IMG/VR virus record: IMGVR_UViG_3300027824_000005
Location: 1-42,863 of that record
From: a virus
DNA: 42,863 nucleotides
Reading direction: 5' to 3' (one strand)
Part shown: in pieces, positions 9,611-41,400 of the stretch
Layout: each line of letters opens with the position of its first letter
How positions within the stretch are numbered: the first letter of the stretch is position 1
Made by a program: the position numbers and the translations under genes
The notes under the pieces: model-generated
Told to the model about the DNA's origin: nothing
The model's input: only the letters and a program-made list of their open reading frames with translations
Database searches by the model: none

Positions 9611-9837
9611 TGAAGAAAGTAGTAGTCATAGTGGACGGCAAGCGTGAGTTCATTGATGACGAACGGAAGGAAGAACACCGAAGCGGGACTGACCGTCGGA
9701 AGACGCAGATGCCAAGCCGGGCCAGAGAACGGTACAGTGACCATCACCAATACTCCGCGGTCAACTTCCCCCGCTACAAGGATTGGGTAAAAATTTGCGA
9801 CCGCCGTAAAGTCGAAGATCGAAGGGTGAAGTCGTGA
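9610..9837 (+). CDS. small highly charged protein (75 aa)
   Basis: Begins with a beta strand (KKVVVIVDGK) and continues as a Lys/Arg/Asp/Glu-rich chain containing two DRRK repeats (TDRRK and CDRRK). It could bind nucleic acid; no family recognised. ATG 9610 overlaps the deacetylase stop, and its own stop overlaps the GTG of the RtcB gene. Confidence 0.55.
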   Translation: MKKVVVIVDGKREFIDDERKEEHRSGTDRRKTQMPSRARERYSDHHQYSAVNFPRYKDWVKICDRRKVEDRRVKS

Positions 9838-11042
9838 GCTACGAGCGATTCCAGCAGGACGGAGCACCGATCTACGCCTGGACCGAGGGCGTGCCCATTG
9901 AACAGATGGCGAAGGAACAGCTTGTTCGCACATCGCAGATGCCGTTCATCTACCACCACTTGGCCGTGATGCCCGACGTGCATTATGGCAAAGGAGCCAC
10001 CGTTGGGTCTGTCGTGGTCACAAAGGGTGCGATTATCCCTGCTGCCGTGGGGGTTGATATTGGGTGTGGAATGGTTGCGGCTCGCACTAATCTTACTGCT
10101 TCTCAGCTACCGGACAATCTTGCGCTCGTCCGAGCGTACATCGAAGAGGTAATCCCCCATGGCAAAACGAAAGGCATCGACAAGGGCGCGTGGACGGACC
10201 CGGCGAAGTGGATCAAGAAAGCCTGGAACATCCAGCTTGCCGCCGACTATGACTCTCTCTGTCTCCGTCATCCTGGCGTGCTCCACGACCGGGCTCTCGC
10301 ACACCTGGGGACCTTGGGTGGGGGAAACCACTTTGTCGAAGTCTGCCTGGACGAAACTGATGCGGTCTGGGTCATGCTCCACTCAGGTTCGCGTGGGCCG
10401 GGTAACCGAATCGGCACCTACTTCATAGAGGCTGCCCAGGAGGAGATGGACAAGCTGGGACTAAAGCTGGAGGACAAGGATCTGGCCTATCTGGTGGAAG
10501 GGCAGCAGAGTTTCATCGACTATTGGGATGGGGTCTTTTGGGCACAGAAGTTCGCTGAGGTAAGCCGCCAGCTAATGCTGAGCCACGCTGTCCTGGCGGT
10601 ATCGAACGCCCTGGGGATTCCGATCACGATGGACGAGGAGGCTGTCAACTGCCACCACAACTACGCAGTCATCGAGCCCCACTATGGCGAGAACGTAATG
10701 GTGACCCGGAAGGGCGCGGTGCGCGCGGGCCTCGGGGAGATGGGTATCATCCCGGGTTCCATGGGCACCAAGAGCTACATCGTGATGGGGAAGGGAAACC
10801 CGGAGAGCTTCGAGTCTTGCTCCCACGGCGCTGGTCGGGTAATGTCCCGCGGTGCAGCAAAGCGGGGGATCACGCTTGAAGAGTTCCAAGAGTCCGTCAA
10901 GGGAGTCGAATGCCGGAAGACCGCGGACCTGATCGACGAGGCACCCGCTGCCTACAAGGACATTGACGCGGTGATGAAGGCGCAGGAAGATCTGGTCGAG
11001 ATCGTGCACACCCTCCGAGCGGTGGTGTGCGTAAAGGGGTAA
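9834..11042 (+). CDS. rtcB: RtcB RNA-splicing ligase
   Basis: A full-length RtcB (402 residues). Visible landmarks: PDVHYGKG, the metal-binding VDIGCGM with Cys78 (the position of the essential Cys in E. coli RtcB), GGGNHFVEV, SGSRGPGN, HNYAVIEPHYGE, IPGSMGTKSYI, and SHGAGR with His331, the expected guanylylated His. Known reaction: Mn/GTP-dependent joining of 2',3'-cyclic-phosphate or 3'-phosphate RNA ends to 5'-OH ends. In a phage the likely job is repair of tRNAs or other RNAs cut by host anticodon nucleases or toxins during infection, an inference. No archease partner is seen beside it. The GTG start overlaps the preceding stop. Confidence 0.93.
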   Translation: MSYERFQQDGAPIYAWTEGVPIEQMAKEQLVRTSQMPFIYHHLAVMPDVHYGKGATVGSVVVTKGAIIPAAVGVDIGCGMVAARTNLTASQLPDNLALVRAYIEEVIPHGKTKGIDKGAWTDPAKWIKKAWNIQLAADYDSLCLRHPGVLHDRALAHLGTLGGGNHFVEVCLDETDAVWVMLHSGSRGPGNRIGTYFIEAAQEEMDKLGLKLEDKDLAYLVEGQQSFIDYWDGVFWAQKFAEVSRQLMLSHAVLAVSNALGIPITMDEEAVNCHHNYAVIEPHYGENVMVTRKGAVRAGLGEMGIIPGSMGTKSYIVMGKGNPESFESCSHGAGRVMSRGAAKRGITLEEFQESVKGVECRKTADLIDEAPAAYKDIDAVMKAQEDLVEIVHTLRAVVCVKG

Positions 11043-22596: not shown

Positions 22597-23700
22597 ATGT
22601 CTCTTACCGCTCAGGCGCAGATGGAATCCGAAATCCTCAACGGCCTGTCCAAGTCCTTCAAGGACTCGAAGTCGGGCTCGGCTTTCCGCCCCGGCGACAT
22701 TCATCTCAACTCCTACGTGCCCTACGGGATCTCTCCCGGGATAGCCCAGTTTGACCTGGCCCTAGGGCGGCCTGGTGTTCCGGCAGGTAGGGTCATTGAG
22801 ATCTACGGGTTCGAAGGGTGCGGGAAGTCGAGCCTGGCTCTGACCCTGGCTGCCGGTGTGCAGCAGATGGGTGGCCTCGTCTTCTGGCAGGACACGGAGA
22901 GTTCGTGGGACAACGGGCTGGCTATCTCCCGTGGAGTGAACCCGGAGTCGGGGATCATCCTCACCCAGGTAGGCTCCATCGAGGGGATCTTCCGGCAGCA
23001 GGAAGCCATCCTGAAGGAACTGAGCGCGAAGGGCTGGAAGCGCCCTGTGCTGATCGTGACCGATTCCATTACCAGCAGTCTCCCGGAGCAGGAGCTAAAG
23101 GGGGAGATGGTCGGGGACATGCGCGTGGGAGGCGAGGCCAAGACCATCCGCCGCGGCATCCGCCGCGTCTGGTACAAGCTGGCCAAGCAGCGCATCCCGC
23201 TGGTCTACATCAACCACGCCGTAGCCACCAACATCACCGCTGCCTTTGGCAAGAAGAGCGGGGCGGCAGGAGGCCACGGTATCAAGTTTGCCTCGGCCCT
23301 GCGCATCGAGATGAAGCAGGTATCCCAGCTTCTCAAGGGCAAGGGCACGGAGCAGACACGCCAGGGCATTCGGGTCCTTATCAGCTTTGAGAAATGGAAG
23401 CTGGGGGTCAACGCCCAGCCGAAGTTTGAGATCGACCTCCTGGATGCCAGCGGATTCGACAAGGGTACCTCGCTCATGGAGGCGTACAAAGAGATCGGGG
23501 TAGCCATTGGGGTTAGTAAGGAAGACCTCAAGATGGCTGGACCGGACTACTTCCGTGAGCTATACCAGCACTGGTGGAACGAGGCTGGTCTGAAGGGGTT
23601 GGTCAAGCCATGGGGCGGACAGGACAACGTAGAGAACACGGGCGAGGACGAGGAAGATGCAGGGGACACCGACAGCGGAGAGTCAGAGGACGGGGCATAA
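22597..23700 (+). CDS. RecA/UvsX-family recombinase
   Basis: A 367-residue recombinase. An N-terminal segment leads to Walker A GFEGCGKSS near residue 71, FWQDTESSW near 96, the Walker B-type strand VLIVTDSITSSLPEQE near 150, and PLVYINHAVATNI near 205, followed by a central loop region rich in Gly and the C-terminal domain. The last 25 residues are highly acidic (GEDEEDAGDTDSGE), as in many RecA proteins. Function: ATP-dependent strand exchange, working with the SSB and SbcCD genes around it. Start ATG is one base after the preceding stop. Confidence 0.9.
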   Translation: MSLTAQAQMESEILNGLSKSFKDSKSGSAFRPGDIHLNSYVPYGISPGIAQFDLALGRPGVPAGRVIEIYGFEGCGKSSLALTLAAGVQQMGGLVFWQDTESSWDNGLAISRGVNPESGIILTQVGSIEGIFRQQEAILKELSAKGWKRPVLIVTDSITSSLPEQELKGEMVGDMRVGGEAKTIRRGIRRVWYKLAKQRIPLVYINHAVATNITAAFGKKSGAAGGHGIKFASALRIEMKQVSQLLKGKGTEQTRQGIRVLISFEKWKLGVNAQPKFEIDLLDASGFDKGTSLMEAYKEIGVAIGVSKEDLKMAGPDYFRELYQHWWNEAGLKGLVKPWGGQDNVENTGEDEEDAGDTDSGESEDGA

Positions 23701-24067
23701 GACTATCGCCATCGACTTCGATGGCGTGCTCCACCTCTACAACGACAAAAAGTGGACAGACGGAAAGCCTTCTGACGGCCCGGTTCCCGGAGCTGCTGAC
23801 TTTGTACGATTTGTTATCCGTAAGGGTTGGACCCCTGTGGTATTCTCCACTCGGGCGCGCGAGGCTCAGGGGGTCACTGAGATCCGTACTTTTCTCCGCA
23901 AGCACAACTTCCCGGGGATCAGGAAGATCACGAACCTCAAGATCGGCGCGGAGATCTACATCGACGACCGGGGCTGGCGCTTCTCCGGGGATTGGGAAGT
24001 CCTCAAGGAAATGCTCGTCCTCTTCGACGGCAGCCCGCCGGTCTGGCACAAGAAGGAGAAGCCATGA
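23657..24067 (+). CDS. HAD-superfamily phosphatase-like protein (136 aa)
   Basis: Motif I IAIDFDGVLH near residue 17, motif II VVFSTR near 62, and motif IV IYIDDRGWRF near 100 place it in the HAD superfamily, close to small phage phosphatases of the polynucleotide 3'-phosphatase kind. Substrate unknown: nucleotides or DNA/RNA 3' ends are plausible given the repair genes around it. It begins 44 bases before the recA stop in another frame, so the first 14 residues overlap the acidic RecA tail. Confidence 0.75.
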   Translation: MQGTPTAESQRTGHKTIAIDFDGVLHLYNDKKWTDGKPSDGPVPGAADFVRFVIRKGWTPVVFSTRAREAQGVTEIRTFLRKHNFPGIRKITNLKIGAEIYIDDRGWRFSGDWEVLKEMLVLFDGSPPVWHKKEKP

Positions 24068-24270
24068 AAGAAACTAAGAGTCACTACATCGAGTTCAACA
24101 AGGATGACATAATCGAGTTGCTGGTGGAGAATTGCAGCAGCATCCCTGCGGGGGCGGAGTTCTCCATCCTCGACTTTTCTTTTGAGCCCGAGGGTAACCA
24201 GCTAAAAGGCTACCTAGCCATCAGCATCCTGGAGCCGGCAGTCCGGCACCGAAAGGGGAAGGCGAAGTGA
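24064..24270 (+). CDS. hypothetical protein (68 aa)
   Basis: Small acidic protein with AAGGAG upstream of ATG 24064. Beta-rich (AEFSILDFSFEPEG, GYLAISILEP) with a basic end. No family recognised. It lies directly before the Acb2-like gene and overlaps it by four bases, so the two are probably co-translated. Confidence 0.55.
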   Translation: MKETKSHYIEFNKDDIIELLVENCSSIPAGAEFSILDFSFEPEGNQLKGYLAISILEPAVRHRKGKAK

Positions 24271-24503
24271 TTACGGAAGAGCAGCTTGCAAACTGGTTCA
24301 CGTACCATGCCCCGACAGATGGGGTACCAGGAAAGACACTACCGGACAACGAAGCCTATGAGATAATCCGTAAGGCTGGTAGGTCTCTGGCGTTGGCTAT
24401 TCGTGACTTCACCCCCGAGTCGGCAGATCAGACGGCGGCCATTCGCAAGGTGCGTGAGGCTGTCATGACTGCCAATGCCGCCATTGCTTGCAAGGGGAAG
24501 TAG
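24267..24503 (+). CDS. acb2: Acb2-family anti-CBASS protein (cyclic-nucleotide sponge)
   Basis: A 78-residue protein whose sequence follows the Acb2 pattern: FTYHAPTD near residue 12, a helix AYEIIRKAGRSLALAI, the CP/TPESAD-type turn, then KVREAVMTANAAIA at the end. In Pseudomonas phage PaMx33 and T4 (Vs.4), Acb2 forms hexamers that trap the cyclic di- and tri-nucleotide signals of CBASS immunity. The length and both helices of the hairpin are intact, so function is likely. GTG start overlaps the preceding stop. Assignment is from recall of the family pattern; a profile search would settle it. Confidence 0.78.
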   Translation: MITEEQLANWFTYHAPTDGVPGKTLPDNEAYEIIRKAGRSLALAIRDFTPESADQTAAIRKVREAVMTANAAIACKGK

Positions 24504-24665
24504 GTGATCGAGCTTTCGTTCGACTTCATGGTCGATCCGAGAGAAATGTTTGCAGCAATCGTAGTGCATGAGGAGGTACCCCGTGCTGACTACAACATGC
24601 GAATGTTTGGGATTCGTCTCTGGCTCTTTGAAGTTTCGGTCTGCTTCATGTGGAAGAACGACTGA
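24504..24665 (+). CDS. small protein (53 aa)
   Basis: GTG start directly after the Acb2-like stop, with AAGGGGAAG upstream, and a stop overlapping the ATG of the SbcD gene. The peptide is Met/Phe-rich with a hydrophobic end (FGIRLWLFEVSVCFMW) that could be a short membrane-associated helix. The tight fit between genes supports it. Function unknown; its neighbour suggests a possible defence-related role, but there is no motif. Confidence 0.5.
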   Translation: MIELSFDFMVDPREMFAAIVVHEEVPRADYNMRMFGIRLWLFEVSVCFMWKND

Positions 24666-25723
24666 TGCCCCCGTTCGTAGTATACAGCGATCTCCACCTA
24701 CACAACTGGCCCTACGGCAGTACTCTAGTTGATGGATATAACTCAAGACTCCTTCAACAGGTCGATGTCTTGAGGCAGATTGGTGACTTCTGTAAGCAAA
24801 CGAACACGCAACACCTGATCTTCTGTGGGGACTTCTTCCACACCCACAGCCAGATCGCAACGAGCGTCCTAAGCAAGGCATACGAGGCACTGGCAAACCT
24901 CCGCTCGGGCGGCCTGACCATGCACTTCCTCCGAGGGAACCATGATACAGCCGACCGGGCGGGGGCCATTCATTCCCTGGACTTCCTGCGGGAGTTCGGG
25001 CGCGTGACTCCGCTGGAGTCCCACCAGCGCTTCAGCGACGGAACCACCTGGAACTTCCTAGGCTACACAGAGGACGAGGAGAAGCTGTACGACTTCCTGG
25101 ATCGAGTGCCACACGGCGGCTTCGTCTTCCTGCACCAGGGCGTCGCTAACGTACCCATGGGCTCGGGCTTCGTCATCAACGAGATCCTGCGCCCTGACCG
25201 CATCCCGGACCACATCGGTCATATCTTCACCGGGCACTACCACAACCGCCGGCAGGTAGGGGAACGCATCACCATCATCGGGTCGCCCATGCAGCTAAAC
25301 TGGAGCGACGTGGGGGAGGAACGTGGCTGGCTTTACTACGACGGTAAGCAAGTCTACGGCATCGAGTCGAAAGCGCCGCAGTTCCAGACGATCGACTTCG
25401 GCGGCTGCACGACCGTGCAGGGAGCATCACTGTCCACTATGGCTTTCGTGTTCGGCAACTTCCTTCGTGTTCGGAACACAGGTGCAGGGGTATCACAAGA
25501 ATCCCTTCGACAAGAGCTGCGTACTTTGGGCGCGCTATCAGTTGAGTTTGAGGGACTTCCTGGAGAGCCAAAGACTATCTCAGAAGGAGACGAGGAAGCA
25601 GAGTTCGCAGTCGGACTCCCAGAACTCCTCGAAAGATTCCATCGTCGCTACAACGTGGCGCCTGTGCGGCGCAGGATCGGCGAGCGTCTGAGGGAAGGAC
25701 GGTATGAGGTTCCGCAAGTTTGA
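24665..25723 (+). CDS. SbcD/Mre11-like nuclease subunit (T4 gp47-like)
   Basis: A 352-residue metallophosphoesterase with the expected ligands in order: SDLHLH near residue 8, GDFFHTH near 50, RGNHD near 90, FLHQG near 155 and GHYHNRR near 190. Known role: the nuclease half of the SbcCD/Mre11-Rad50 complex, trimming DNA ends and opening hairpins. The ATPase partner follows with a 20-base overlap. ATG 24665 is taken; GTG 24650 is possible. Confidence 0.9.
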   Translation: MPPFVVYSDLHLHNWPYGSTLVDGYNSRLLQQVDVLRQIGDFCKQTNTQHLIFCGDFFHTHSQIATSVLSKAYEALANLRSGGLTMHFLRGNHDTADRAGAIHSLDFLREFGRVTPLESHQRFSDGTTWNFLGYTEDEEKLYDFLDRVPHGGFVFLHQGVANVPMGSGFVINEILRPDRIPDHIGHIFTGHYHNRRQVGERITIIGSPMQLNWSDVGEERGWLYYDGKQVYGIESKAPQFQTIDFGGCTTVQGASLSTMAFVFGNFLRVRNTGAGVSQESLRQELRTLGALSVEFEGLPGEPKTISEGDEEAEFAVGLPELLERFHRRYNVAPVRRRIGERLREGRYEVPQV

Positions 25724-27590
25724 GGCGATGAACCTGTTCTCCATTGGGTCTGCCGTCCTGGACTTAACCGGGCGCGGCGTGGTCCTGGTGACAGGGTACT
25801 CAGAGGATGAGCAGGGCGAGAACGGCTCTGGTAAGTCGAGCCTTACGTCGAAGGGGATCGTATGGACACTGTTCGGCCGGACTCCGAGGGGGAGCAAGGG
25901 CGACTCCGTAATCAACAACAAGAAGACTGGTTTCCAGGACTGTTTTGGGAGGATTGGATTCACGTCCCAAGATGGCCAGACGGACTATCTTGTTCACCGT
26001 TCCCGCGCCCCGAACAAGCTGCTCTTCTACGTCAATGGCAAAGACCTGACGCGGCGGCAGGAGTCGGAGACTCAGGAGCTAATCGACAAGGCCCTGGGTC
26101 TGGACTACAAGACGTTCCTTCAGACCGCGTTCTTTGGACAGGGCCGGAAAGACGGGTACGCCGAACTGACAGGCGCCGCCCAGAAGGAAGTGCTGGAGCA
26201 GATCCTACCACTGGAGAGTCTGGAGGGATGGTACGCGGGTGCCGAAGATGCGACCAAGAAGGTTCAACGCCTGGCCGATACCCTAGGTCTACGGCTGACG
26301 ACGGCCGAAGTTACCGTTCGAACGAGCAAGGCACAGTTCGACCAGGTGCAGACTAAGCAACAGAACTGGGACGCTGAGCAGAACAGCAAGATCGTTGCGG
26401 CTCAGGCCAGTCTGGAGAAGGCCCAGGTGGACACAGGCGTGAAGACTATGGAGCTAGTTAGACTGGAGCATGGGCTTGCGGCGCTACCCCAGCCGGAAGA
26501 GCTAAGTGAGAGCCTAGAGAACTGCGAGGAGCAACTACGCGATCACCGCGGCAAGGAGAAGCCCATCCTTAACAAGCTGGACGAGGCGATCCGCCGACAG
26601 CAGGAGTGGGATAAGCACCTTGCGCTCCTGGCCATCCAGCAGAGAGAGGTCAAGACCGAGTGCCCTATCTGCAAGCAGCCTCTACCGGCGGAGCGCATAG
26701 AGCAGCTTCAAGTTGAGCAGAACATCCTGTCTCAGCAGGTCCAGGAAGCGATGAAGGCCCTGGAGAACTGCAACGCTGTCCGCGTAAGCTGGGACGAAGA
26801 GCGGAGCCGCTGGGGTGTAGGGTTCCAGTCCCTTGACAACCGGCGTGAAGAGATCATGAAGACCATGGAGAAGCGGCTCAAGATCCAGTCCAGCATCGCG
26901 GAGACGGAGAGCGTCCTGTCCCACATGCCCAGCCCGTCCGGGATCGCTGAGTACATCCGTACCTTGGAGGCTGCGGTGAACCCTTTCACCCAGCTTTTGA
27001 ACGACAACAACGACGCCTACCAGACCGCCCTCGGGAACGAGACGGACGCTAGGGTCCAGAAGGCCAAGATCGACGAGGAGCTGGAGCACCTGAAGTGGTG
27101 GAAGGATGCGTTCAAGAACAGCCTGCGGACGTTCATTTTTGAAACTATCTGCCCGTGGCTGGAGGCGCGCACCCAGCACTACCTGAATGAACTGCGCAAC
27201 CCGCAGCTTCACGTAGCCTTCTCGACGATCAAGACTTTGAAATCAGGGGAGACGAAGGATGACTTCAACGTCACCGCAGTCTCCGACAGCGGGGGTGAGG
27301 AGTTCGATTTGTTGTCCGGGGGGGAACAGCAGATCACGAACTTCTCAATCGGGCTTGCCCTTGCCGAGCTTGCAGGGGCTCAAGTCGAGGGCAGGCCCGA
27401 TCTTCTCATCTGCGACGAGCCGTTCACCAACCTGGACCGGCGCAACGCGGAGGCAGTGACCGACTTCCTCAAGCGGTACACGACCGGCACAACTCTGCTA
27501 GTCTCGAACGAGGAATCGCTCAAGTCGCTGGTTCCCAACCGCGTCCACCTGGTGAAGAGGGCCGGCGTGTCAAACGTGGAGGACTACTAA
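25704..27590 (+). CDS. SbcC/Rad50-like ATPase subunit (T4 gp46-like)
   Basis: A 628-residue SMC-type ATPase. Walker A GENGSGKSS is near residue 38. Long coiled coils (about 175-320 and 325-480) flank the zinc-hook CPICKQPLP near 320. The signature LLSGGEQQI lies near 536 and Walker B LLICDEPFTNLD near 567. It is shorter than cellular SbcC, as usual in phages. Partner of the upstream SbcD-like nuclease; together with RecA and SSB it forms a recombination-dependent replication set. Confidence 0.92.
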   Translation: MRFRKFEAMNLFSIGSAVLDLTGRGVVLVTGYSEDEQGENGSGKSSLTSKGIVWTLFGRTPRGSKGDSVINNKKTGFQDCFGRIGFTSQDGQTDYLVHRSRAPNKLLFYVNGKDLTRRQESETQELIDKALGLDYKTFLQTAFFGQGRKDGYAELTGAAQKEVLEQILPLESLEGWYAGAEDATKKVQRLADTLGLRLTTAEVTVRTSKAQFDQVQTKQQNWDAEQNSKIVAAQASLEKAQVDTGVKTMELVRLEHGLAALPQPEELSESLENCEEQLRDHRGKEKPILNKLDEAIRRQQEWDKHLALLAIQQREVKTECPICKQPLPAERIEQLQVEQNILSQQVQEAMKALENCNAVRVSWDEERSRWGVGFQSLDNRREEIMKTMEKRLKIQSSIAETESVLSHMPSPSGIAEYIRTLEAAVNPFTQLLNDNNDAYQTALGNETDARVQKAKIDEELEHLKWWKDAFKNSLRTFIFETICPWLEARTQHYLNELRNPQLHVAFSTIKTLKSGETKDDFNVTAVSDSGGEEFDLLSGGEQQITNFSIGLALAELAGAQVEGRPDLLICDEPFTNLDRRNAEAVTDFLKRYTTGTTLLVSNEESLKSLVPNRVHLVKRAGVSNVEDY

Positions 27591-28378
27591 TGGGTACTGG
27601 ACAACCCACACCGTACCAGTATGAGACTACTGTCCCTATCCAGCCGAAGGGCTGGCCGGACCCGTTCATGCCGTCCAATACACCGGACCCGAACGCCATC
27701 TTCAATATCGGAGGCAGCTACATGTACACCCCGCAGCCTGATCCGCAGTACATACTGCACTGGATCGACGAGGGCAAGGTCAACGTCGCGCAGCGTGAGA
27801 TCTACATGTGCATCCCGATCGAGAGCCCTGGCGACGAGGAAGGCGGGGACTGGCGCGGCTGGACTAAGGCAGGCTTCCGCTATCTTGACCTTACGCCCGG
27901 CCCGATCACGCTCTACATCAACACGCCTGGCGGGGATGAAGCCGGCATGTTTATGCTCTACGACCTGATCCGCACCGCTAAGAACCTCGTTGTCACAGTA
28001 GGCATGGGCGAGGTTTGTAGCGCGGGCGTGCTCCTCCTGGCGGCAGGCGATCGGCGGCTAGTTACGGAGAACTGCGTGCTCATGAGTCATGAGGGACGCC
28101 ACTCCGCTGTGGACCTCAGCGCCAGCGAGGCCAAGGCTCGCATGAAGCTGGTGGAGTACAACGAGTGGCAGTGGTGTGAGCTAATGGCCCGCCACACTGG
28201 CAAGGCAGCTAAAGAGTGGGAGAAGATCACCAAGAAGGAAGCCGAACTGTGGCTACTGGGTGGTCAGGAGATCGTGGATAAGGGCATCGCAGACGTGGTG
28301 GTGCCCTCGGTTAAGGGTGGCCTACAGAAGGCCATCTATGATGCAATCGACTTCCTACAGGAGAAAGCAAATGCGTAA
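27590..28378 (+). CDS. ClpP-like serine protease
   Basis: A 262-residue protein with a ClpP/crotonase fold: ITLYINTPGGDEAG, the nucleophile in EVCSAGVLLLAAG (Ser144), His167 in MSHEG, and Asp235 near the end (GIADVVV), giving a plausible Ser-His-Asp triad. About 55 N-terminal residues precede the ClpP domain, Pro-rich and unlike cellular ClpP. Phage ClpP-like proteases often act in head maturation, but this gene lies among replication and nucleotide genes, so host protein turnover is another option. ATG overlaps the SbcC stop. Confidence 0.85.
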   Translation: MGTGQPTPYQYETTVPIQPKGWPDPFMPSNTPDPNAIFNIGGSYMYTPQPDPQYILHWIDEGKVNVAQREIYMCIPIESPGDEEGGDWRGWTKAGFRYLDLTPGPITLYINTPGGDEAGMFMLYDLIRTAKNLVVTVGMGEVCSAGVLLLAAGDRRLVTENCVLMSHEGRHSAVDLSASEAKARMKLVEYNEWQWCELMARHTGKAAKEWEKITKKEAELWLLGGQEIVDKGIADVVVPSVKGGLQKAIYDAIDFLQEKANA

Positions 28379-30965: not shown

Positions 30966-31500
30966 GGTATCCTGGGCAGAGCCTCTGAAGACCCACATTG
31001 GCAAGGATCTCTTCGGCTTCACCGAAGAGCAGGTCAACGGCACCGAGGCTGAGAAGGAAGCGGTAGACCCGCGTTGGGGCAAGAGCCCGCGGTGGGTGCT
31101 TCAGCACTTTGGCACCGAGGTCTTCCGCTCCTTCGACCCGGACTTTTGGGTGAAGGTAGGTACTCGGGAGATTGCAGACCGACTTGACCAGGGGTACGAC
31201 GTGGTGGTCGCAGACTGCCGCTTCCCAAACGAGATGGAGGCCGTCCGGCGTTTGGGCGGGATCGCGGTGCGGGTGGTTAGAATGGGCCAAGTGTCGAAGG
31301 ACACCCATGTCAGTGAGACGGCCTTGGATACCTACGAGTTTGACAGAATCATCACTGCCCGGTCTGGTGATCTGACCGGGTTGCTCTATACTGCCGACCA
31401 GCTTGTCAAGGACATGCGCGATGGTTTGATGGCCACAAGAGATGAGATTCAACTACATCAGGCAGCTATAGACGAGGACGTACGGAATGGCGTTTACTAA
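30877..31500 (+). CDS. deoxynucleoside monophosphate kinase
   Basis: A 207-residue P-loop kinase. LIGLSGKKQSGKST (residues 4-17) is the phosphate-binding loop; further landmarks are WVLQHFGTEVFR near 67, the conserved DFWV, VVVADCRFPNEMEAVRR near 112, and VRVVRMG. This is the phage dNMP kinase pattern (T4 gene 1-like), which phosphorylates dNMPs for replication. ATG 30877 is taken for its AGAGGGA site; an upstream frame start is inside the zinc-finger gene. Confidence 0.85.
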   Translation: MGVLIGLSGKKQSGKSTIASFLRQDKGFFEVSWAEPLKTHIGKDLFGFTEEQVNGTEAEKEAVDPRWGKSPRWVLQHFGTEVFRSFDPDFWVKVGTREIADRLDQGYDVVVADCRFPNEMEAVRRLGGIAVRVVRMGQVSKDTHVSETALDTYEFDRIITARSGDLTGLLYTADQLVKDMRDGLMATRDEIQLHQAAIDEDVRNGVY

Positions 31501-34500
31501 GCACGGCGACGGCACGACTATCTGGGCGGACCCCACCGAAGAGGAGGTTGCCCGCAACCGGGACAAGATCATGAACCCGGAGGCGTACAACAACCCGGTG
31601 GCGGTTCCGGCCGCCGTCCAAGCGCAGCTTCAGCGCCTCATCTCTGAGCAGGCGTTCGGGCACCAGCGCTACGCAAACTCCAGCCGCCTACTCCTGAAGG
31701 CGGTGGACAGGTCCGTCCACGACCCAGGCGTCGTGGACATCATCGTGCCGGTCTACAACGCCCTGCGGATCGTCAAGCAGTGCTTGAACTCCGTGGTCGA
31801 GCGTACGGAGTGGCCGTACAGGCTAATCATCGTAGACGACTGCTCAGACAAGACGACCCACCGCTACCTCACCGAGTTTGCCGCAGAGCACCCTCAGGTC
31901 AACATGTACCGGAACAACAAGAACCGCGGCTTCGCGGCGACGGTCAACCGTGGCATCAAGGCTGGCAACGGCAAGTTCGTGTGTGTCCTGAACTCTGACG
32001 TACTGGTTACGCCGGGGTGGCTGACGAAGATGGTCTTCGCGCTCAACGCCGACCCACGCAACCAGATCTGCAACCCGTGCACCAACAACACTGCCGTCAT
32101 TGATGTTCCCTTTCAGCCTGGAGCGTCCTACATTGACATGAACAAGGCCCTGGAGTGCTCGTCCTTCCGGCGCTACCCGGAGATCATGCCCACCGGCTTC
32201 TGCTTCATGTTCAAGCGCCAACTCCTGGAGGACGTGGGCCTCTTCGACGAAGCGTATGTGAGCTACGGCGAGGAGACGGACTTCTGGATGAAGACCGTCT
32301 GGCGCGTGCGCAACGGCGAGTACCTTCAGTACCGGGCCGTGCTCGCGGACGACACCTACATTTTCCATGAGCGTGGTTCCAGCTTCACCCAGCTAGGGGA
32401 TACCGCCCACATGGAGCAGCGGAACACGTCCAGCGCTCGCTTCAAGCGCCTCTGGCCCAGCTACCAGACGTGGGCCAAGTCGTGGGATGCGAAGAAGACT
32501 CTGGGGGCGCTCCGCCAGCCGCTACCGGCGATGATCCTTAACCCCGCCAAACCGCTATACAACGTAGTATTCGTGGTCCACTCCGCAGCATACTGCGGCG
32601 GCATGCGTCTTATCGCGGACATTGTGAACGAGCTGAACGAGCGCGGAGCGCACGCGAAGGTGGCCCTTATCAAGCGGCCTGGCGTTGCGCCGGAGAAGAC
32701 CCTCTCGGAGCTGCGTACCGCTCCGCTAATGTACGAAGGAGACGAAGACTTCCTAGCCCGTGCGGCAGCCGACTTCGACCCGGACTCTCTGGTTATTGCA
32801 GCGACAGCCGAACTAACGCCCCAGGTGAAGGCCCTGTGCGACCGCGTGCGAACCTACACCCCGGTCCTCTTCTCCCAGTCCTACGATGCCGATCTGGCTA
32901 CGACCGAGGACGTGAAGGAGAAGATGTACGACAACATGAAACTGCTGCCCAACTGCATTGCAGCAGTGAACTGGCTGGGGGAGTTCTACAAGAGCGAGGG
33001 GATGAACGTGCTCGGCGTGTCCGGTGTGGGCATCGACCTGGATACCTTCTACCCGCGTGGACGCGATAATGGCGATGAGCGCCCTACGCTCATGCTGTCC
33101 ATGGACGGCCCTAATCTGCCGTGGCGTGGGTATTATCGCGGGGCTGCGCTGGCTAATGCGGTGAAGGCTGAGGCTGAGAAGCGTGGCGTGGACATTCGGA
33201 TCATGGCGTTTGGTATCGAAGTACTCCCGGAGGCTCCTCACGTTGTCTGCCTCGGGAAGCTAGGGCAGGGGCGTCTGGCAACGGTGCTTGGCACAGAGGT
33301 AGACGTGTTCTGCGATCCTAGTACCTTCCACAGCTATGGGCTTCCGGTAGTCGAGGCCATGGCGTCCGGTTGCGTGCCGGTGCTCTGGCAGTACAAGGGG
33401 CAGGAAGAGATCTTCCGGCTTCAGAGCAACGAAGAGGCCGCTCTGATCTGGCACCCGGCCTACCCCGTGGAACAGGCGGCCAACGACATTCTCAACCTCT
33501 TGGACAAGGACTTTCCTATTGCTAGGATGCAAGCGGCAGCTAGAACGCTAGCGCTCACGCAGGACCGGCAGAACGCGGTCGCTAAGTTCATCGAGACCCT
33601 GGAGCACAGCTTCGCGCTGCGGGCCAATCGCCGCAAGATCGTGATGGTCACCCCGCACTTGCGCAAGCACGGCGGCCCGACTACCATCGTCAACCTGGCG
33701 AACGAACTGGCCGAGAAGGGCCACGACGTGAAGCTGCTCACGATCTACTCGGACATCAACCCGGAGATCCTGGAAGGTGTCAAGGTACCCGTCCTGGTGG
33801 ACATCAATAACATCCCGGAGTGCGATGTACTAATCACGAACAGCGACAACCCTTACAACCCGCACTTCAACGCCCTGAAGCAGGCCAAGCACAAGATCCT
33901 CCTGAAGCTGTCTCACAACGCTCGCTTCATCGGGGAGGAGAACGGCAGCCTCAACCTCAAGTGGGACTACGTGGTCACCAGCACGAAGTGGCTTACGGAC
34001 GTGTGCCTCAACCCCACGAAGGAAGAGGGCTGGGACTATCTGCCGTGCAAGGCAGCGCGGGTGGGCTGGTTCCACTACGGGCATGAGGCATTCGCTTGCC
34101 GCCCGGAGAACCATCTGTATGGGGATGGGAAGACGCGCCCGATCGTCATCGCCAGCCTTGTCCACCACCACCCTCTCAAGGGGTCGGCGAACGCCTTCCA
34201 GGCGCTTGAGAAGATTAAGAGCATGTACGGCAATCAGGTGCACATCGTAGGGATTGGGGAGGTACCGGAGTTCAAGCCGCCCCCGTGGATTCAGTACATC
34301 AAGGACGCCAATCGAATGGCTCTGGCCGACCTATTCAAGCAGATCGACATCTGGGTAAGCGCGTCGGAGACGGAGGGCCTGGGGCGTATGGCGCTGGAGG
34401 CCATGTCCGCGGGGACCGTCTGCGTGCTCTCAGACACGAAGGCCGAGTTCGTGGCCCCGGGTAGCAACTGTCTGGTATACCCGATCGGCGATATTCAGGC

Positions 34501-34648
34501 TATGATGGATGCCATTAACAAGCTGCTGATGGACCACCCGCTGCGCACGTCCCTGGCTGAGGCCGGCTTCCACACGGCAGCCGCTCTCGCAGATCCGCGC
34601 CCTTGCATTAAGGCGTTGGATGCGGTAATTCAGGAGGTCTGTCAATGA
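31487..34648 (+). CDS. three-domain glycosyltransferase (GT2 + two GT4-like)
   Basis: A 1053-residue protein. Residues about 80-320 form a GT2 (GT-A) domain: VDIIVPVYNA, IIVDDCSDKTT, NRGFAATVNRGI, VCVLNSDVLVTPGW (acidic metal site) and YGEETDFW. About 355-700 is a GT-B domain of the GT4 kind: NVVFVVHSAAYCGGMRLIAD and DPSTFHSYGLPVVEAMASG near 609. About 715-1050 is a second GT4-like domain: VTPHLRKHGGPTTIVNLANE near 718 and SASETEGLGRMALEAMSAG near 957. Each domain has the acceptor/donor loops of an active enzyme. Likely role: building a multi-sugar chain on virion proteins, modified DNA bases or a host surface polymer; which of these is not visible. No signal peptide. Confidence 0.9.
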   Translation: MAFTKHGDGTTIWADPTEEEVARNRDKIMNPEAYNNPVAVPAAVQAQLQRLISEQAFGHQRYANSSRLLLKAVDRSVHDPGVVDIIVPVYNALRIVKQCLNSVVERTEWPYRLIIVDDCSDKTTHRYLTEFAAEHPQVNMYRNNKNRGFAATVNRGIKAGNGKFVCVLNSDVLVTPGWLTKMVFALNADPRNQICNPCTNNTAVIDVPFQPGASYIDMNKALECSSFRRYPEIMPTGFCFMFKRQLLEDVGLFDEAYVSYGEETDFWMKTVWRVRNGEYLQYRAVLADDTYIFHERGSSFTQLGDTAHMEQRNTSSARFKRLWPSYQTWAKSWDAKKTLGALRQPLPAMILNPAKPLYNVVFVVHSAAYCGGMRLIADIVNELNERGAHAKVALIKRPGVAPEKTLSELRTAPLMYEGDEDFLARAAADFDPDSLVIAATAELTPQVKALCDRVRTYTPVLFSQSYDADLATTEDVKEKMYDNMKLLPNCIAAVNWLGEFYKSEGMNVLGVSGVGIDLDTFYPRGRDNGDERPTLMLSMDGPNLPWRGYYRGAALANAVKAEAEKRGVDIRIMAFGIEVLPEAPHVVCLGKLGQGRLATVLGTEVDVFCDPSTFHSYGLPVVEAMASGCVPVLWQYKGQEEIFRLQSNEEAALIWHPAYPVEQAANDILNLLDKDFPIARMQAAARTLALTQDRQNAVAKFIETLEHSFALRANRRKIVMVTPHLRKHGGPTTIVNLANELAEKGHDVKLLTIYSDINPEILEGVKVPVLVDINNIPECDVLITNSDNPYNPHFNALKQAKHKILLKLSHNARFIGEENGSLNLKWDYVVTSTKWLTDVCLNPTKEEGWDYLPCKAARVGWFHYGHEAFACRPENHLYGDGKTRPIVIASLVHHHPLKGSANAFQALEKIKSMYGNQVHIVGIGEVPEFKPPPWIQYIKDANRMALADLFKQIDIWVSASETEGLGRMALEAMSAGTVCVLSDTKAEFVAPGSNCLVYPIGDIQAMMDAINKLLMDHPLRTSLAEAGFHTAAALADPRPCIKALDAVIQEVCQ

Positions 34649-35379
34649 GGGGTATCGCCATTGTCACCTACAACCGGGCAAACCAACTTGGGGATCAGAT
34701 CGAGGCTGTTATACGCACTGCTCCCAGCGACGCTCGCATTGTTGTCTGCGATGACGGCTCGAACGATGACACTCCGCTCGTTGCGACGCGGTACCCGGTG
34801 CTCTACTTGCGGGGGTCGAATCTGGGGGTTGGGGCGAACAAGAACCGGGCACTGTACGCACTACGGGATGCTAGTTTTTTTGCTATCCTCGAAGACGACC
34901 TGTTTCCAACTGAAGCTGGATGGTTTGAACTTTACGAAGAGGCCGCAATCGTTAGTGGTCTACATCATTTCTGCCGCGTCCAGGACAAGGAGATTCCTGA
35001 GGCGGTTCAGGCTTTTGCGGTCAGCATGGTCAAGAGGGGTTTCACCCCGATCTATGGATCTAGCCCTAGAGGCGACCTCACATTTGCAACTGGAGAGGTT
35101 ATTAGAAAGGTGGGCGGATTCAACCCTGCCTTTCGAGGGGCTGGTTTTGCCCATGGCGAATGGTCAAGTCGCGTGGATCGTGCCGGGTTGATTCCCCACC
35201 CGGCCAAGTGGGTTGACATCAAGGAAGCCCGCGACAAGTTTGCACAACGTGGGGACACAGAAGGTGGAAGATGGAATCTACTCAGGCCAGTCTTGAAGGA
35301 ACAGCTCAAGTCGAACAAGCGGGTGTTGAAGGCGCTGAACAAGAGGCCGTACACGTATCACCCGCTAGTCTTGAGCTAG
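34645..35379 (+). CDS. GT2-family glycosyltransferase (244 aa)
   Basis: Compact GT-A enzyme: GIAIVTYNRANQL near residue 3, VVCDDGSNDDT near 34, LGVGANKNRAL near 62, and the DxD-like FAILEDDLFPTEAGW near 80. Further on, GEVIRKVGGFNPAFRGAGFAHGEWS resembles the acceptor region of GT2 enzymes. ATG overlaps the stop of the three-domain glycosyltransferase, so it probably acts on the same product. The last 109 bases overlap the deformylase gene; codon choice here (mostly G/C at third positions) favours this frame. Confidence 0.85.
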   Translation: MRGIAIVTYNRANQLGDQIEAVIRTAPSDARIVVCDDGSNDDTPLVATRYPVLYLRGSNLGVGANKNRALYALRDASFFAILEDDLFPTEAGWFELYEEAAIVSGLHHFCRVQDKEIPEAVQAFAVSMVKRGFTPIYGSSPRGDLTFATGEVIRKVGGFNPAFRGAGFAHGEWSSRVDRAGLIPHPAKWVDIKEARDKFAQRGDTEGGRWNLLRPVLKEQLKSNKRVLKALNKRPYTYHPLVLS

Positions 35380-36023
35380 TTCTAGAGGTCATCAATGTCC
35401 CCGACAGACGGCTCACTCGACCCTCTGCCGCGTTTACTGCTGACGAAATCCGAGCACTCGATCGGGAGTATGTCGATGCTCTGGTGCGAACGATGTATGC
35501 GACCCATGGTGTGGGGATCGCCGGAGTACAGGTTGGCTGGATGCAGCAGGTGGTCGTTGTTGACCCATATATGCAGGCCGGAGGATCGAAGGACCCACTG
35601 GTTCTTTTTAATCCCCGCATCGTGGAAGCGTTCGGTAGCCAGGACAGTATCGAAGGGTGCCTATCAGTCTTTGGTTTCCAGGCTACCCTTCCGCGTGCGG
35701 AGCAGGTTGTGGTTCAAGGTCTTGATCTTGAAGGCGAGGAGCGCACCTTCTCGTTTGATGGATATGGCGCGACGATTTGGCAGCACGAAACCGACCACCT
35801 TCAAGGTAAAACGATCTTGTCTTACGCTTCCCGGCTCCGTCAAGATATTTATCTTCGAAAGCTGGCAAAGTTCATAAAGAGGAGAGAGCGTGCTGAGAAG
35901 AGACCAACTCGCCAAGCAGTCGTTTCACGACAGGCTAGCGGACGTATACAGTCGGGGTCGGTCAGTCCGGGAGCGAGTGTACCTGCTCATTCGAAGCAAG
36001 GGCCGCGCGGGGGCGACCGATAA
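35271..36023 (+). CDS. def: peptide deformylase with unusual terminal extensions
   Basis: All three deformylase motifs are present: GVGIAGVQVGW (motif 1, Gln87), EGCLSVFG (motif 2, Cys130, metal ligand) and QHETDHLQG (motif 3, His172, Glu173, His176). The enzyme removes formyl groups from nascent proteins. The core starts only near residue 40 (VINVPDRRL) and ends near 205. The N-terminal extension is encoded over the end of the upstream glycosyltransferase and the last 45 residues, basic and low-complexity, over the winged-helix gene. No later standard start exists before the core, so ATG 35271 is accepted. Low GC at third positions in both overlaps suggests that this gene was extended into its neighbours. 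Confidence 0.88.
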   Translation: MESTQASLEGTAQVEQAGVEGAEQEAVHVSPASLELVLEVINVPDRRLTRPSAAFTADEIRALDREYVDALVRTMYATHGVGIAGVQVGWMQQVVVVDPYMQAGGSKDPLVLFNPRIVEAFGSQDSIEGCLSVFGFQATLPRAEQVVVQGLDLEGEERTFSFDGYGATIWQHETDHLQGKTILSYASRLRQDIYLRKLAKFIKRRERAEKRPTRQAVVSRQASGRIQSGSVSPGASVPAHSKQGPRGGDR

Positions 36024-36147: not shown

Positions 36148-36377
36148 AGGGTTTACCGAAGAAGAGTTCTGTCAAGGTTCGCCATCGGGCGACGACGAAG
36201 GATCTCCGACGGGAGATCCGGCGCCTACGTGGGGTGATCCGCAAGATGGCGGACGCTATGTCCCATGTCCAGGCTAGCGTTCTTTTGAGTGCGTGGGATC
36301 TTCAGAAGGAAGCCAAGGGCAAGGTGGAGCTAGCTTGCTCGGAACTCTACCGAGCGATCCCGCAGGATGAACTATGA
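36144..36377 (+). CDS. small basic helical protein (77 aa)
   Basis: Basic N-terminus (KGLPKKSSVKVRHRATTK) followed by a long helix (residues 20-70) that could coil. May bind nucleic acid; no family recognised. ATG 36144 overlaps the preceding TGA; a GTG at 36132 in frame is less likely. Ends over the next gene's start. Confidence 0.55.
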   Translation: MKGLPKKSSVKVRHRATTKDLRREIRRLRGVIRKMADAMSHVQASVLLSAWDLQKEAKGKVELACSELYRAIPQDEL

Positions 36378-37282
36378 ACTTCCTGGTCCACTACCGTGAA
36401 GACTTCGGCAAGGACGGGCGACCGATCGAGACGTACGCGCGCTCGTTCACGAAGTATCTGCGCCTGCGCCACCCGGTCTTTGCCTTCGGTGGTGGCCACG
36501 CTATCGAGACCATAGAGCAGCTACCCCTCGGGCTACAGTCTGACTTCCTCATTGACCTGGAGTGCAGCCGTGACCAATCAGGACGTTTTCACTGGCTTGC
36601 TGAGAAGTTTGATGGACGATGCCCTTCAGCGGCTTGGTTCATCGACTCCCATGGTCACCCGGACTTGCATGAGGCTATTGCACGGCAATACAACCACGTC
36701 TTTTTCGCTGTATGGGCCAAGAGGGATCTTTTTTCCAATCACTCTTCCGCCCACTGGCTCCCCAACGCCACCGATACCGAGTGGTTCCAAGGCTACAAGT
36801 ACCGAGCCCCAGAAGTCTACGACTTCGGATTCCACAGCAGCAAGGGGGGCCTAGACCGTGGGGAGATTCTGCGCCGGGTGTGCGAGCGTAACAACTGGAC
36901 CTTTGACATCCGCGAGGTATCCCGCGCTTATACTCACCGATGGCCCGCCTGTGCTCAGGCCATGGCTGCCTGCCGACAGCTCTTCAACCACGGGCAGAAG
37001 CATGACGGTCCTAATCAGCGTGTCATGGAGTCCATGGCAATGCGCAAGGTGCTATTTACCGATCTGGACCCCCGGGATGGAATGAGCAAGCTGTTCGAGG
37101 AAGGCAAGCACTTCCTCGGCTATGCCAGCGAAGATGAGCTAGAGGAGAAGGCCCGGTGGGCGCTACTCAACCCGAAGGAGGCTGACGAGATTGCCTTCAC
37201 CGCCTTCAAGGAAGTCTGCACGAAGCACCAGATCATAGCTCGGGTAGAGTCGGTGCTGGAGGTACTGAATGCCAAGCCCTAA
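36374..37282 (+). CDS. glycosyltransferase family 1/CgeB-like protein (302 aa)
   Basis: C-terminal half (about 190-300) has the Glyco_trans_1_2/CgeB pattern: QKHDGPNQRVMESMAMRKVL, then SKLFEEGKHFLGYASEDELE, and an ending helix after IAFTAFKEVCTKH. The N-terminal half is a Rossmann-like domain with GGGHAIET and AWFIDSHGHPDLH. Typical GT-B enzyme of unknown acceptor. It is part of the glycosyltransferase cluster and overlaps neighbours at both ends. Confidence 0.75.
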   Translation: MNFLVHYREDFGKDGRPIETYARSFTKYLRLRHPVFAFGGGHAIETIEQLPLGLQSDFLIDLECSRDQSGRFHWLAEKFDGRCPSAAWFIDSHGHPDLHEAIARQYNHVFFAVWAKRDLFSNHSSAHWLPNATDTEWFQGYKYRAPEVYDFGFHSSKGGLDRGEILRRVCERNNWTFDIREVSRAYTHRWPACAQAMAACRQLFNHGQKHDGPNQRVMESMAMRKVLFTDLDPRDGMSKLFEEGKHFLGYASEDELEEKARWALLNPKEADEIAFTAFKEVCTKHQIIARVESVLEVLNAKP

Positions 37283-38485: not shown

Positions 38486-41400
38486 TTAGTCTCCAAAGAA
38501 CCCTCGTTCTGGTGTCTTCTTTTTGTCGTCCGTCAAGATCCCGAACCCACCGCCCTTAGGCTCACCCTTGGACGTGCTTCCTCCGAAGAAGGAAAGCCCC
38601 TCGGTTCCTCTGGCGCCCCCGGCCTTGGTGCCGAAGTAGCGACCCTGGGCCTCCTTGCGCAGCTCGTCAGTCTCCGCGTCGTAGTACTCCTGGCGGGTCT
38701 TGGCGGCAAAGTCGCCGGCCGTCTGGAGGAAGTATGTGAGATCCTGGGCCGAGTACCCCCGAAAGGCCGGTAGGCGCCCTAGGGTCTTCACCTGACCCTG
38801 GAGCCACTTCGTGTACGCCTTCTGGGCCTGTCCAGGCTCCCCGGCGTACTCCTCGATGTAGGTCTTCATCACCTCACCCAAGGCTTCCTTCACATCACCA
38901 TCAAGCCCATTCGTGACCCCGTTCTCAAGCTGGCGGGCCTTCACCTGGCGGACGGTCGCAAACTGGTCCCGCTGCATGGACATGTTCTTGTACATGTAGG
39001 CGGGGTCGATCGGGTGGTTGCGCCATAGGCCGATGCCGTTGTAGAGGAAGTCGAAGATCGGGGAGCCAGGAGGCTGCCCCGGATAGTCCATCCTGAGCCC
39101 CAAATCTCGCTGTAGGCGCGAGATATTGGTGGGGTCCCAGGCAGAGGTACCCCCTCCCCCTGTTAGGGCGTTCTTAGCGACACTGGTGAGGCCAACGTCT
39201 GGGGAGCCCATGTAGAAGCCGTACTCCTGGACCCAGGGCGGCGCGAGGTACCCAACCAGCCCGGCGAAAGCCTTGGCCGCCGTGTCGGTCATGCTGGAGG
39301 TACGGATCGGGTCCCCCCAGGGGGTCTGGCCGTAGATCACCGAGATGATCGGCTGCATGATAGCTGCTGGCTCTAGCTTTGTGTACGCCCAGATGGAGGA
39401 CAGGCCGTTCCACACGAAGTCTGGGGAGGTCGTCGCTGGGAGGAAGCTGCTTTGGGGGAGCCATTCCAGGAGGCTCGCGCGATAGCCGTCGCGGTCAGGC
39501 CGGTAGCCTGCCCAGCCCGCCAGGGCACCCGCTGCTGCGCCAAGACCCGCGCCAACGCCAACGCCAAGCGGGCTGCTAGTCAGCGCTCCGCCTGCCACGG
39601 CGCCTGCGCCTGCGGTATATGGAATGCTGCCGCTGAGGATGCCGCCTAGTCCCTTGGTTACGACCATGTTTGGCTTCTGAAAGTAGGTCGGCAGGCCGCG
39701 CTTGGCCTCGGCCGTCTCCTCCTGCGAAGCAGGCCCGGCCCCCACTTCAGCCATTAGGGTCTGTAGGATCTGCGGGGCGTGAAGCCAAGGGACCATGCGG
39801 AGCGGGTTGTCCATCAGGTTGTTCTTGATGATGCGGGACGCCTCGGTCGGGAAGGACACCCACGGAAGCCAGAACTTGCGTGCGCCTACGACTGCGGCAC
39901 CTGAGGTGTTGTACATCGGGAAGTGCCGCGCCACGTCAATCACGGCCTGCATCTGGGGTACGCCGCGGGCACGAAGCCAGGTGAAGTAGGCCATCTTTGG
40001 TACAGCCTCAGCGGCCATGTAGATGTTGGTCATCTTGTCCCACCAGGGCACTGCGCCGCCGAGCTGTAGCATGTTCTTCACGCCGAAGTAACTCTTGAAG
40101 ATCGCCTGGGTTATCGGCTGGTTGTTGGTGAGCGCGCGGTTGAGGTTGTCCAGGTGGCCTGCGCCCTCCACGTTGTGGAGGTTCACACTGAAGAGCTGCT
40201 GTACCGCGGGGTTCATGAACTCCTTGGTCATGTTGATAGTGATGCCATTGTCTGTGTGGGTGATCGGCGTGAGGCCCATCAGGTAGCCGTTCTTCGGGTC
40301 CAGGAAGGCCATCATGTCCTTCTCCTTGGACTGCTTGAACGCTGCGCTTAGCTGCTTCCACATCGAAGCGCTCTTCATGGTGAGGTCAATGCCCTTCGCC
40401 GAGAACGGGTTCATGCCGGCCATGAGCTGGAAGGCCACGTAGCCGATGGCGTTGTTCACCTGAGTTGCCGGGTTGAGGCCCGTCTTTGCCGTCTTGTACA
40501 TAGCGGTCAGGTAGTCGGTAGCGTGGACCGCAGCGGCAGTCTGGTTCACCATGCCCTGGCTGCCGAACAGCTCGTTGAATACCGCGCGGCGTACCCACGG
40601 CAGCTCGCCGTTTGGCCCTAGGACTTCGGAGCCAGGGACCATAGAGATCATGTTGGCAAGGCGCTGCTGAATGGACGTAGGGAGGTTTTGTCCAGAGCCG
40701 CTGAGGTTGCCGAGCCACACATAGTCCGGCGGTGGGCGGGCGCCGTAACGTGCCACTATGTCTGCGTGCGGAATGGCGTAGTCAGGGTTCACGGCGATGT
40801 CGCGGATGTACTTGAAGTTGTCGTGGAGCAGGGCGTCCATGAAGTACGAGCGGAAGGTCTGCTCCTTCGGGTCGGTGATGAGCTGACCGTTGAGCAGCTT
40901 TTGGTGGAGATCCGGTAGTTCGTTCATACGCGCAGCCAGGGTCTTGGAGTTGTCGAGGGCCGGCAGCTCGATCATGCGGATGCCGTCCTTGCCGATCATC
41001 ATCGGGACCTTGCGGGCGCCCATGTTGGGCATTGGGGTGCCCTTCGTCTGCATGGCAAAGTGGATGCCGCCCACCCGGTCGATCTCGTCCTGGGTGGTAA
41101 AGCCGCTGGCTAGTTGCTCCTGCTGGAGTTCTCGGGACACCTTCTCAATCTTGTCTGCCCACGACTGCGAGTCCGCGTCTAGGGTGACGGGGGCTTTGCC
41201 GACAGCCAGTTCTGGGTTGTACTTTCTGAGGAGGTAGTCTTCTACCGCCTGCCCTTGTCCTTCATCCAGTTTCGCTGCCTGCTGGAGCAGGGTGCCCATG
41301 TCCTTCGCGTTGAAGAGCTGGCCCATGCGGTCGCGGGCTCCGTTCGAAAGGCCGGCGCTCTGCTGCAACTCTTGCACGCGGGACATGTAGCCGTTGCCGA

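Follow-up and report, generated by a model that had tools for sequence, protein, structure and literature searches.

The window, by which we mean the whole stretch of DNA analysed, is a complete IMG/VR virus record of 42,863 bases (linear class), and the acb2-like gene considered here lies in it within a run of plus-strand genes encoding recombination-type proteins (Table 1), with a gp32-like SSB also nearby. The 78-residue gene proposed at this place by the first-pass annotation is present and is a real gene, as indicated by its start signals and conserved relatives: the reading frame of 78 codons ends with TAG at 24501–24503, its GTG start overlaps the stop of the preceding ORF by 4 nt (GTGA), and a further GTG at 24504 opens the next ORF directly 3' of its own stop. 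The GTG start at 24267 is supported by the N-termini of the relatives, which begin at the same residue as the window protein (e.g. MITDEQLQNWF). Nucleotide differences between the window gene and its relative L001 fall 14/14/46 over the three codon positions, and third positions also carry most of the differences from the relatives L004 and L007; this concentration indicates purifying selection on the gene. Its GC3 of 0.60 is low for the genome and mildly atypical, without being extreme (2.8% of 78-codon windows are as low), and codon usage was therefore set aside as proof of recent transfer.

Table 1. Coordinates of the acb2-like gene, its features and its neighbours in the window
Feature	Position	Strand	Remarks
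UvsX/RecA-like recombinase	22597..23700	+	profile matches
HAD-like phosphatase	23657..24067	+	nearest phage relatives annotated polynucleotide kinase or HAD-like hydrolase
Upstream small ORF, 68 aa	24064..24270	+	good codon usage; relatives not found
Purine-rich Shine-Dalgarno-like stretch, AAGGGGAAGG	24253..24262	+	5' of the acb2-like GTG; read from the sequence
acb2-like gene	24267..24503	+	78 aa, GTG start; Acb2/Tad1 hairpin protein by PF24729 and phrog_1454
Y13 codon	24303..24305	+	aligned with T4 Acb2 Y8 and PaMx33 Acb2 Y11
In-frame 7-residue insertion, about residues 19–25 (GVPGKTL)	24321..24341	+	between Y13 and R35; register uncertain by a few residues
R35 codon	24369..24371	+	aligned with T4 K23 and PaMx33 Acb2 K26
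R60 codon	24444..24446	+	aligned with T4 Acb2 T68 and PaMx33 Acb2 T74
Downstream small ORF, 53 aa	24504..24665	+	relatives not found
SbcD-like (gp47-type) nuclease	24665..25723	+	ATG 24665 favoured over GTG 24650
SbcC-like (gp46-type) ATPase	25704..27590	+	profile matches

The two small ORFs flanking the acb2-like gene are plausible genes by codon usage. They gave no family match and no relative in IMG/VR or among phages, leaving unsupported the earlier suggestion that they could be further anti-defence factors. NCBIfam and PADLOC searches of the window protein and these small neighbours returned nothing useful, while the Acb4 profile PF13876 found no match in the window, in a search whose control gave no match either.

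Elsewhere in the window we identified a sigma factor, RtcB, a UvsW-type helicase, DnaB, a DNA polymerase, RusA and a dNMP kinase. Because no recognised head or tail gene was found among the window proteins scanned, the window would seem to be the early part of a larger, T4/SPO1-like phage genome. The RtcB gene (9834–11042) may form, alongside the HAD-like gene, an RNA or DNA end-repair set. The window also carries a phage-encoded ClpP protease (27590–28378), a peptide deformylase (35271–36023), a 1053-aa protein (31487–34648) in which two regions, separate from each other, resemble glycosyltransferases and, in the same run, a further glycosyltransferase-like gene (36374–37282). A 1358-aa ORF on the minus strand (38486–42562), with Gly/Pro-rich ends and no Pfam or PHROG match, may encode a large virion or ejected protein.

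Family assignment and predicted fold

The window protein matched the Pfam Acb2/Tad1 hairpin profile PF24729 over residues 28–75 with 34.2 bits (E 2.8e-8; curated cut-off 27 bits) and phrog_1454 with an E value of 2.7e-15. Proven Acb2 proteins score higher on PF24729 (T4 Vs.4, 71.4 bits; PaMx33 Acb2, 66.1 bits), and the score of the window protein is lower partly because a loop insertion shortens the match, as it does in the relative L031. On a profile of 46 close relatives, from the build of which the window was left out, the window protein scored 114.5 bits, the best of 1000 shuffled sequences reached 17.8 bits, and the Gordonia and Paenibacillus homologues scored 75.8 and 67.5 bits, respectively; T4 Acb2 (7.6 bits) and PaMx33 Acb2 (3.7 bits) were not separable from shuffled controls. 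The bridging Gordonia and Paenibacillus phage homologues reached 73 and 88 bits on PF24729. Since the window protein is linked to the tested Acb2 proteins only through the broad PF24729 profile and these intermediates, the homology, although well supported, is transitive, and the relationship to Acb2 proteins with experimental proof is remote.

The AlphaFold2 model of the window protein (48 sequences; mean pLDDT 88.8) has helices at residues 4–10, 28–48 and 53–75, with confidence dropping at residues 11–27, and a control relative lacking the insertion gave an identical helix layout. The Acb2 protomer consists of one short and two long antiparallel helices and assembles as a hexamer (PMC12043709, PMC10419184), and the predicted short-long-long arrangement is in agreement with it. 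The earlier assignment to the Acb2 hairpin family is thus upheld by two of the tests that the first-pass annotation had named, with PF24729 matched above its cut-off and a helix hairpin predicted. Foldseek searches against predicted viral proteins returned Acb2/Tad1 hairpin proteins as best matches (probability 1.00, TMq 0.60–0.64), albeit with E values of only 0.03–0.07. Solved Acb2 was absent from the PDB matches of both the window protein and L001; as L001 is free of the insertion, the insertion does not explain the missing match, and a small helical-hairpin monomer presumably holds little fold signal in Foldseek. A phmmer search of the window protein against the PDB gave noise only.

Acb2 (T4 Vs.4; Pseudomonas phage PaMx33/PaP2 gp24/p26) and the window protein are both small stand-alone proteins with the PF24729 hairpin, share the predicted layout of one short and two long helices, and have the pocket tyrosine and Lys/Arg aligned. 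They differ in that identity to T4 and PaMx33 Acb2 is about 20–27% in the alignment, and in that the window protein has a 7-residue loop insertion, R60 in place of T68 and a shorter hairpin turn. The hairpin proteins of Paenibacillus, Gordonia and Mycobacterium phages in phrog_1454 belong to the same family by sequence (about 37–41% identity to the window protein), but they lack the insertion and have other gene neighbours. Mycobacterium cluster E and Microbacterium phages have been annotated with putative Acb2 (PMC11953737, PMC13348362), and these genes may be members of phrog_1454. The entry 'Acb2 homolog 43' (PDB 9ptq, 76 aa, six chains), near the window protein in length, was the best PDB match of the family profile, although a weak one (E 1.2); it exceeds the PF24729 cut-off over the matched 60 residues and has Thr where the window protein has R60. 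The C-terminal hairpin of helices to which the name of PF24729 refers is common to Tad1 (Thoeris anti-defence 1) and the window protein. The N-terminal antiparallel β-sheet of Tad1 (PMC12043709) has no counterpart in the window protein, whose AlphaFold2 model contains no strands and has 27 residues preceding the first long helix.

Presumed pocket residues and a lengthened loop

The tyrosine at the Y13 position was found in 110 of 116 relatives, and arginine occupies the R35 position in 115 of 116, with lysine there in T4 and PaMx33 Acb2. Huiting et al. 2023 reportedly describe K26 of PaMx33 Acb2 as the basic partner of the pocket tyrosine. In T4 Acb2, the Y8A substitution abolishes dinucleotide-dependent function (PMC12657218, PMC12657230). 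The Thr found at T4 T68 and PaMx33 T74 is missing from the window protein; this is an affinity position rather than a defining criterion, and T68M reduces the ligand affinity of T4 Acb2 (PMC12657230). Arginine is present at the R60 position in 113 of 116 relatives, a frequency that is overstated because Arg was partly built into the search patterns, while the Gordonia and Paenibacillus proteins have Thr. T4 Acb2 F82, which stacks on the ligand base (PMC12657218, PMC12657230), is aligned with A74 of the window protein; according to an ungapped alignment of the two C-termini, PaMx33 Acb2 likewise has Ala at this position.

The spacing from the tyrosine to the Lys/Arg, counted from the alignment, is 15 in T4 and PaMx33 Acb2 and in 105 of 115 family members, the remainder comprising seven with 16, one with 14, L031 with 21 and the window protein, where the 7-residue insertion results in 22. 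The extra residues thus appear, on the alignment, to separate two presumed contact residues beside the presumed binding pocket. The relative L031 (5998–6225) is the second with an insertion in the same loop, and the two insertions look independent since their sequences differ.

Distribution and gene neighbourhoods of the relatives

In IMG/VR, at least 132 stretches encode relatives (identity up to 68%), a number raised to 258 when an alignment was used as the query. Matches were also obtained in 104 phage records, chiefly of Paenibacillus, Mycobacterium and Gordonia phages, and at 13 loci in bacterial genomes of several phyla, including Planctomycetota, Acidobacteriota and Myxococcales; PF24729 was present in 6 of 298 genomes of the Acidicapsa order. 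In Paenibacillus phage PBL1c (L089, 3998–4201), a 67-aa gene annotated as 'putative phosphomannomutase' encodes a PF24729 hairpin protein (88.4 bits), and this annotation, repeated in several Paenibacillus phage records, is very likely wrong. Mycobacterium phage Phabba (L087, 2992–3420) encodes a 142-aa hairpin protein with a long proline/alanine-rich extension C-terminal to the hairpin.

The first-pass annotation had placed the gene inside a recombination block, between recA/HAD and sbcCD; this is correct for the genome analysed, whereas the relatives do not keep that placement. The gene order of the window around the acb2-like gene was shared by none of the first 80 relatives, the recA or HAD gene of the window accompanied none of these 80 and a distant sbcCD only one, and across 116 relative loci no neighbour family recurred more than eight times. 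A pattern-based search of IMG/VR for relatives of the window RecA found none. In named phages, the gene is surrounded by small genes without known function, follows tRNA genes, lies in the gap between portal and RNA ligase genes, or stands beside a HicAB pair. In Gordonia phage ChisanaKitsune (L088, 4004–4219), it shares an overlap with the end of the portal gene, and an RNA ligase gene and one annotated as a VIP2-like ADP-ribosyltransferase come after it; this portal-side position is unusual for a counter-defence gene. As none of these 80 relatives shares its gene order, the acb2-like gene looks like a mobile accessory gene and appears to move on its own.

Probable function

We consider it likely that the gene product is a small nucleotide sponge resembling Acb2, early and hexameric, that binds cyclic di-/trinucleotides and blocks CBASS-type effectors, with cyclic-oligonucleotide binding and anti-CBASS activity being those that would be expected by analogy with Acb2. 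The protein would be made early, together with the recombination genes, would assemble as a hexamer as in its family, and would bind, but not degrade, cyclic di- and/or trinucleotides, the sequestered signals leaving the CBASS-type effectors of the host inactive. The 7-residue insertion and the Arg for Thr at R60 would probably tune the choice of bound signals. The gene itself would be an independently acquired accessory gene outside the recombination machinery, and the occurrence of relatives in unrelated phage contexts fits the expectation for a mobile counter-defence gene. Members of the clade with Arg at the T68 position, especially the long-loop window protein, might have a shifted ligand, either binding a signal outside the range of T4 and PaMx33 Acb2 or sparing the decoy nucleotides of Panoptes-type systems while still blocking CBASS, a suggestion that we regard as doubtful.

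It is improbable, to our reading, that the protein is a sponge whose main ligand is a non-CBASS signal, such as a cyclic ADP-ribose product of Thoeris or a cyclic oligoadenylate of type III CRISPR. The hairpin domain is common to Acb2 and Tad1, the latter of which binds gcADPR besides cyclic oligonucleotides (PMC12043709), and R60 and the loop insertion alter the presumed pocket or its vicinity; however, the window protein lacks the N-terminal β-sheet domain of Tad1 and retains Y13 and R35, which correspond to dinucleotide-pocket residues of Acb2. A disabled dinucleotide pocket, leaving either a protein that binds trinucleotides alone or a gene in decay, would be consistent with the position of the insertion exactly between the two presumed contact residues and with its near-uniqueness within the family, and natural loss-of-function acb2 alleles do exist, e.g. 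in T2 and PaMx41 (PMC12657218). Against this, the frame is open, the rest of the sequence shows strong conservation, most changes being in third codon positions, and L031 is also intact despite its different loop insertion, such that we hold this explanation to be quite unlikely. That the protein is an accessory factor of the RecA/SbcCD recombination module rather than of counter-defence is very improbable, for notwithstanding the operon-like run between recA/HAD and sbcCD, and Sak4-type-looking recombinases near relatives (at most 7–8 of 116 loci, from a reading of sequences by eye), the scattered neighbourhoods described above, where relatives adjoin portal, tRNA or toxin-antitoxin genes and where, among the first 80, none is accompanied by the recA or HAD gene of the window and one by a distant sbcCD, argue against it.

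Read as an Acb2-like sponge, the window protein is an ordinary member of a known sponge family, marked out mainly by its lengthened loop and contributed by an uncultivated phage. It belongs to a conserved clade of about 100 distinct putative sponges, most of which were found on uncultivated viral contigs, while some occur in phages of Acidobacteriota and mycobacteria and others in the genomes of several further phyla. Together, the lengthened loop and the Thr-to-Arg change provide a natural test of nucleotide choice by Acb2 and bear on the trade-off between CBASS and Panoptes.
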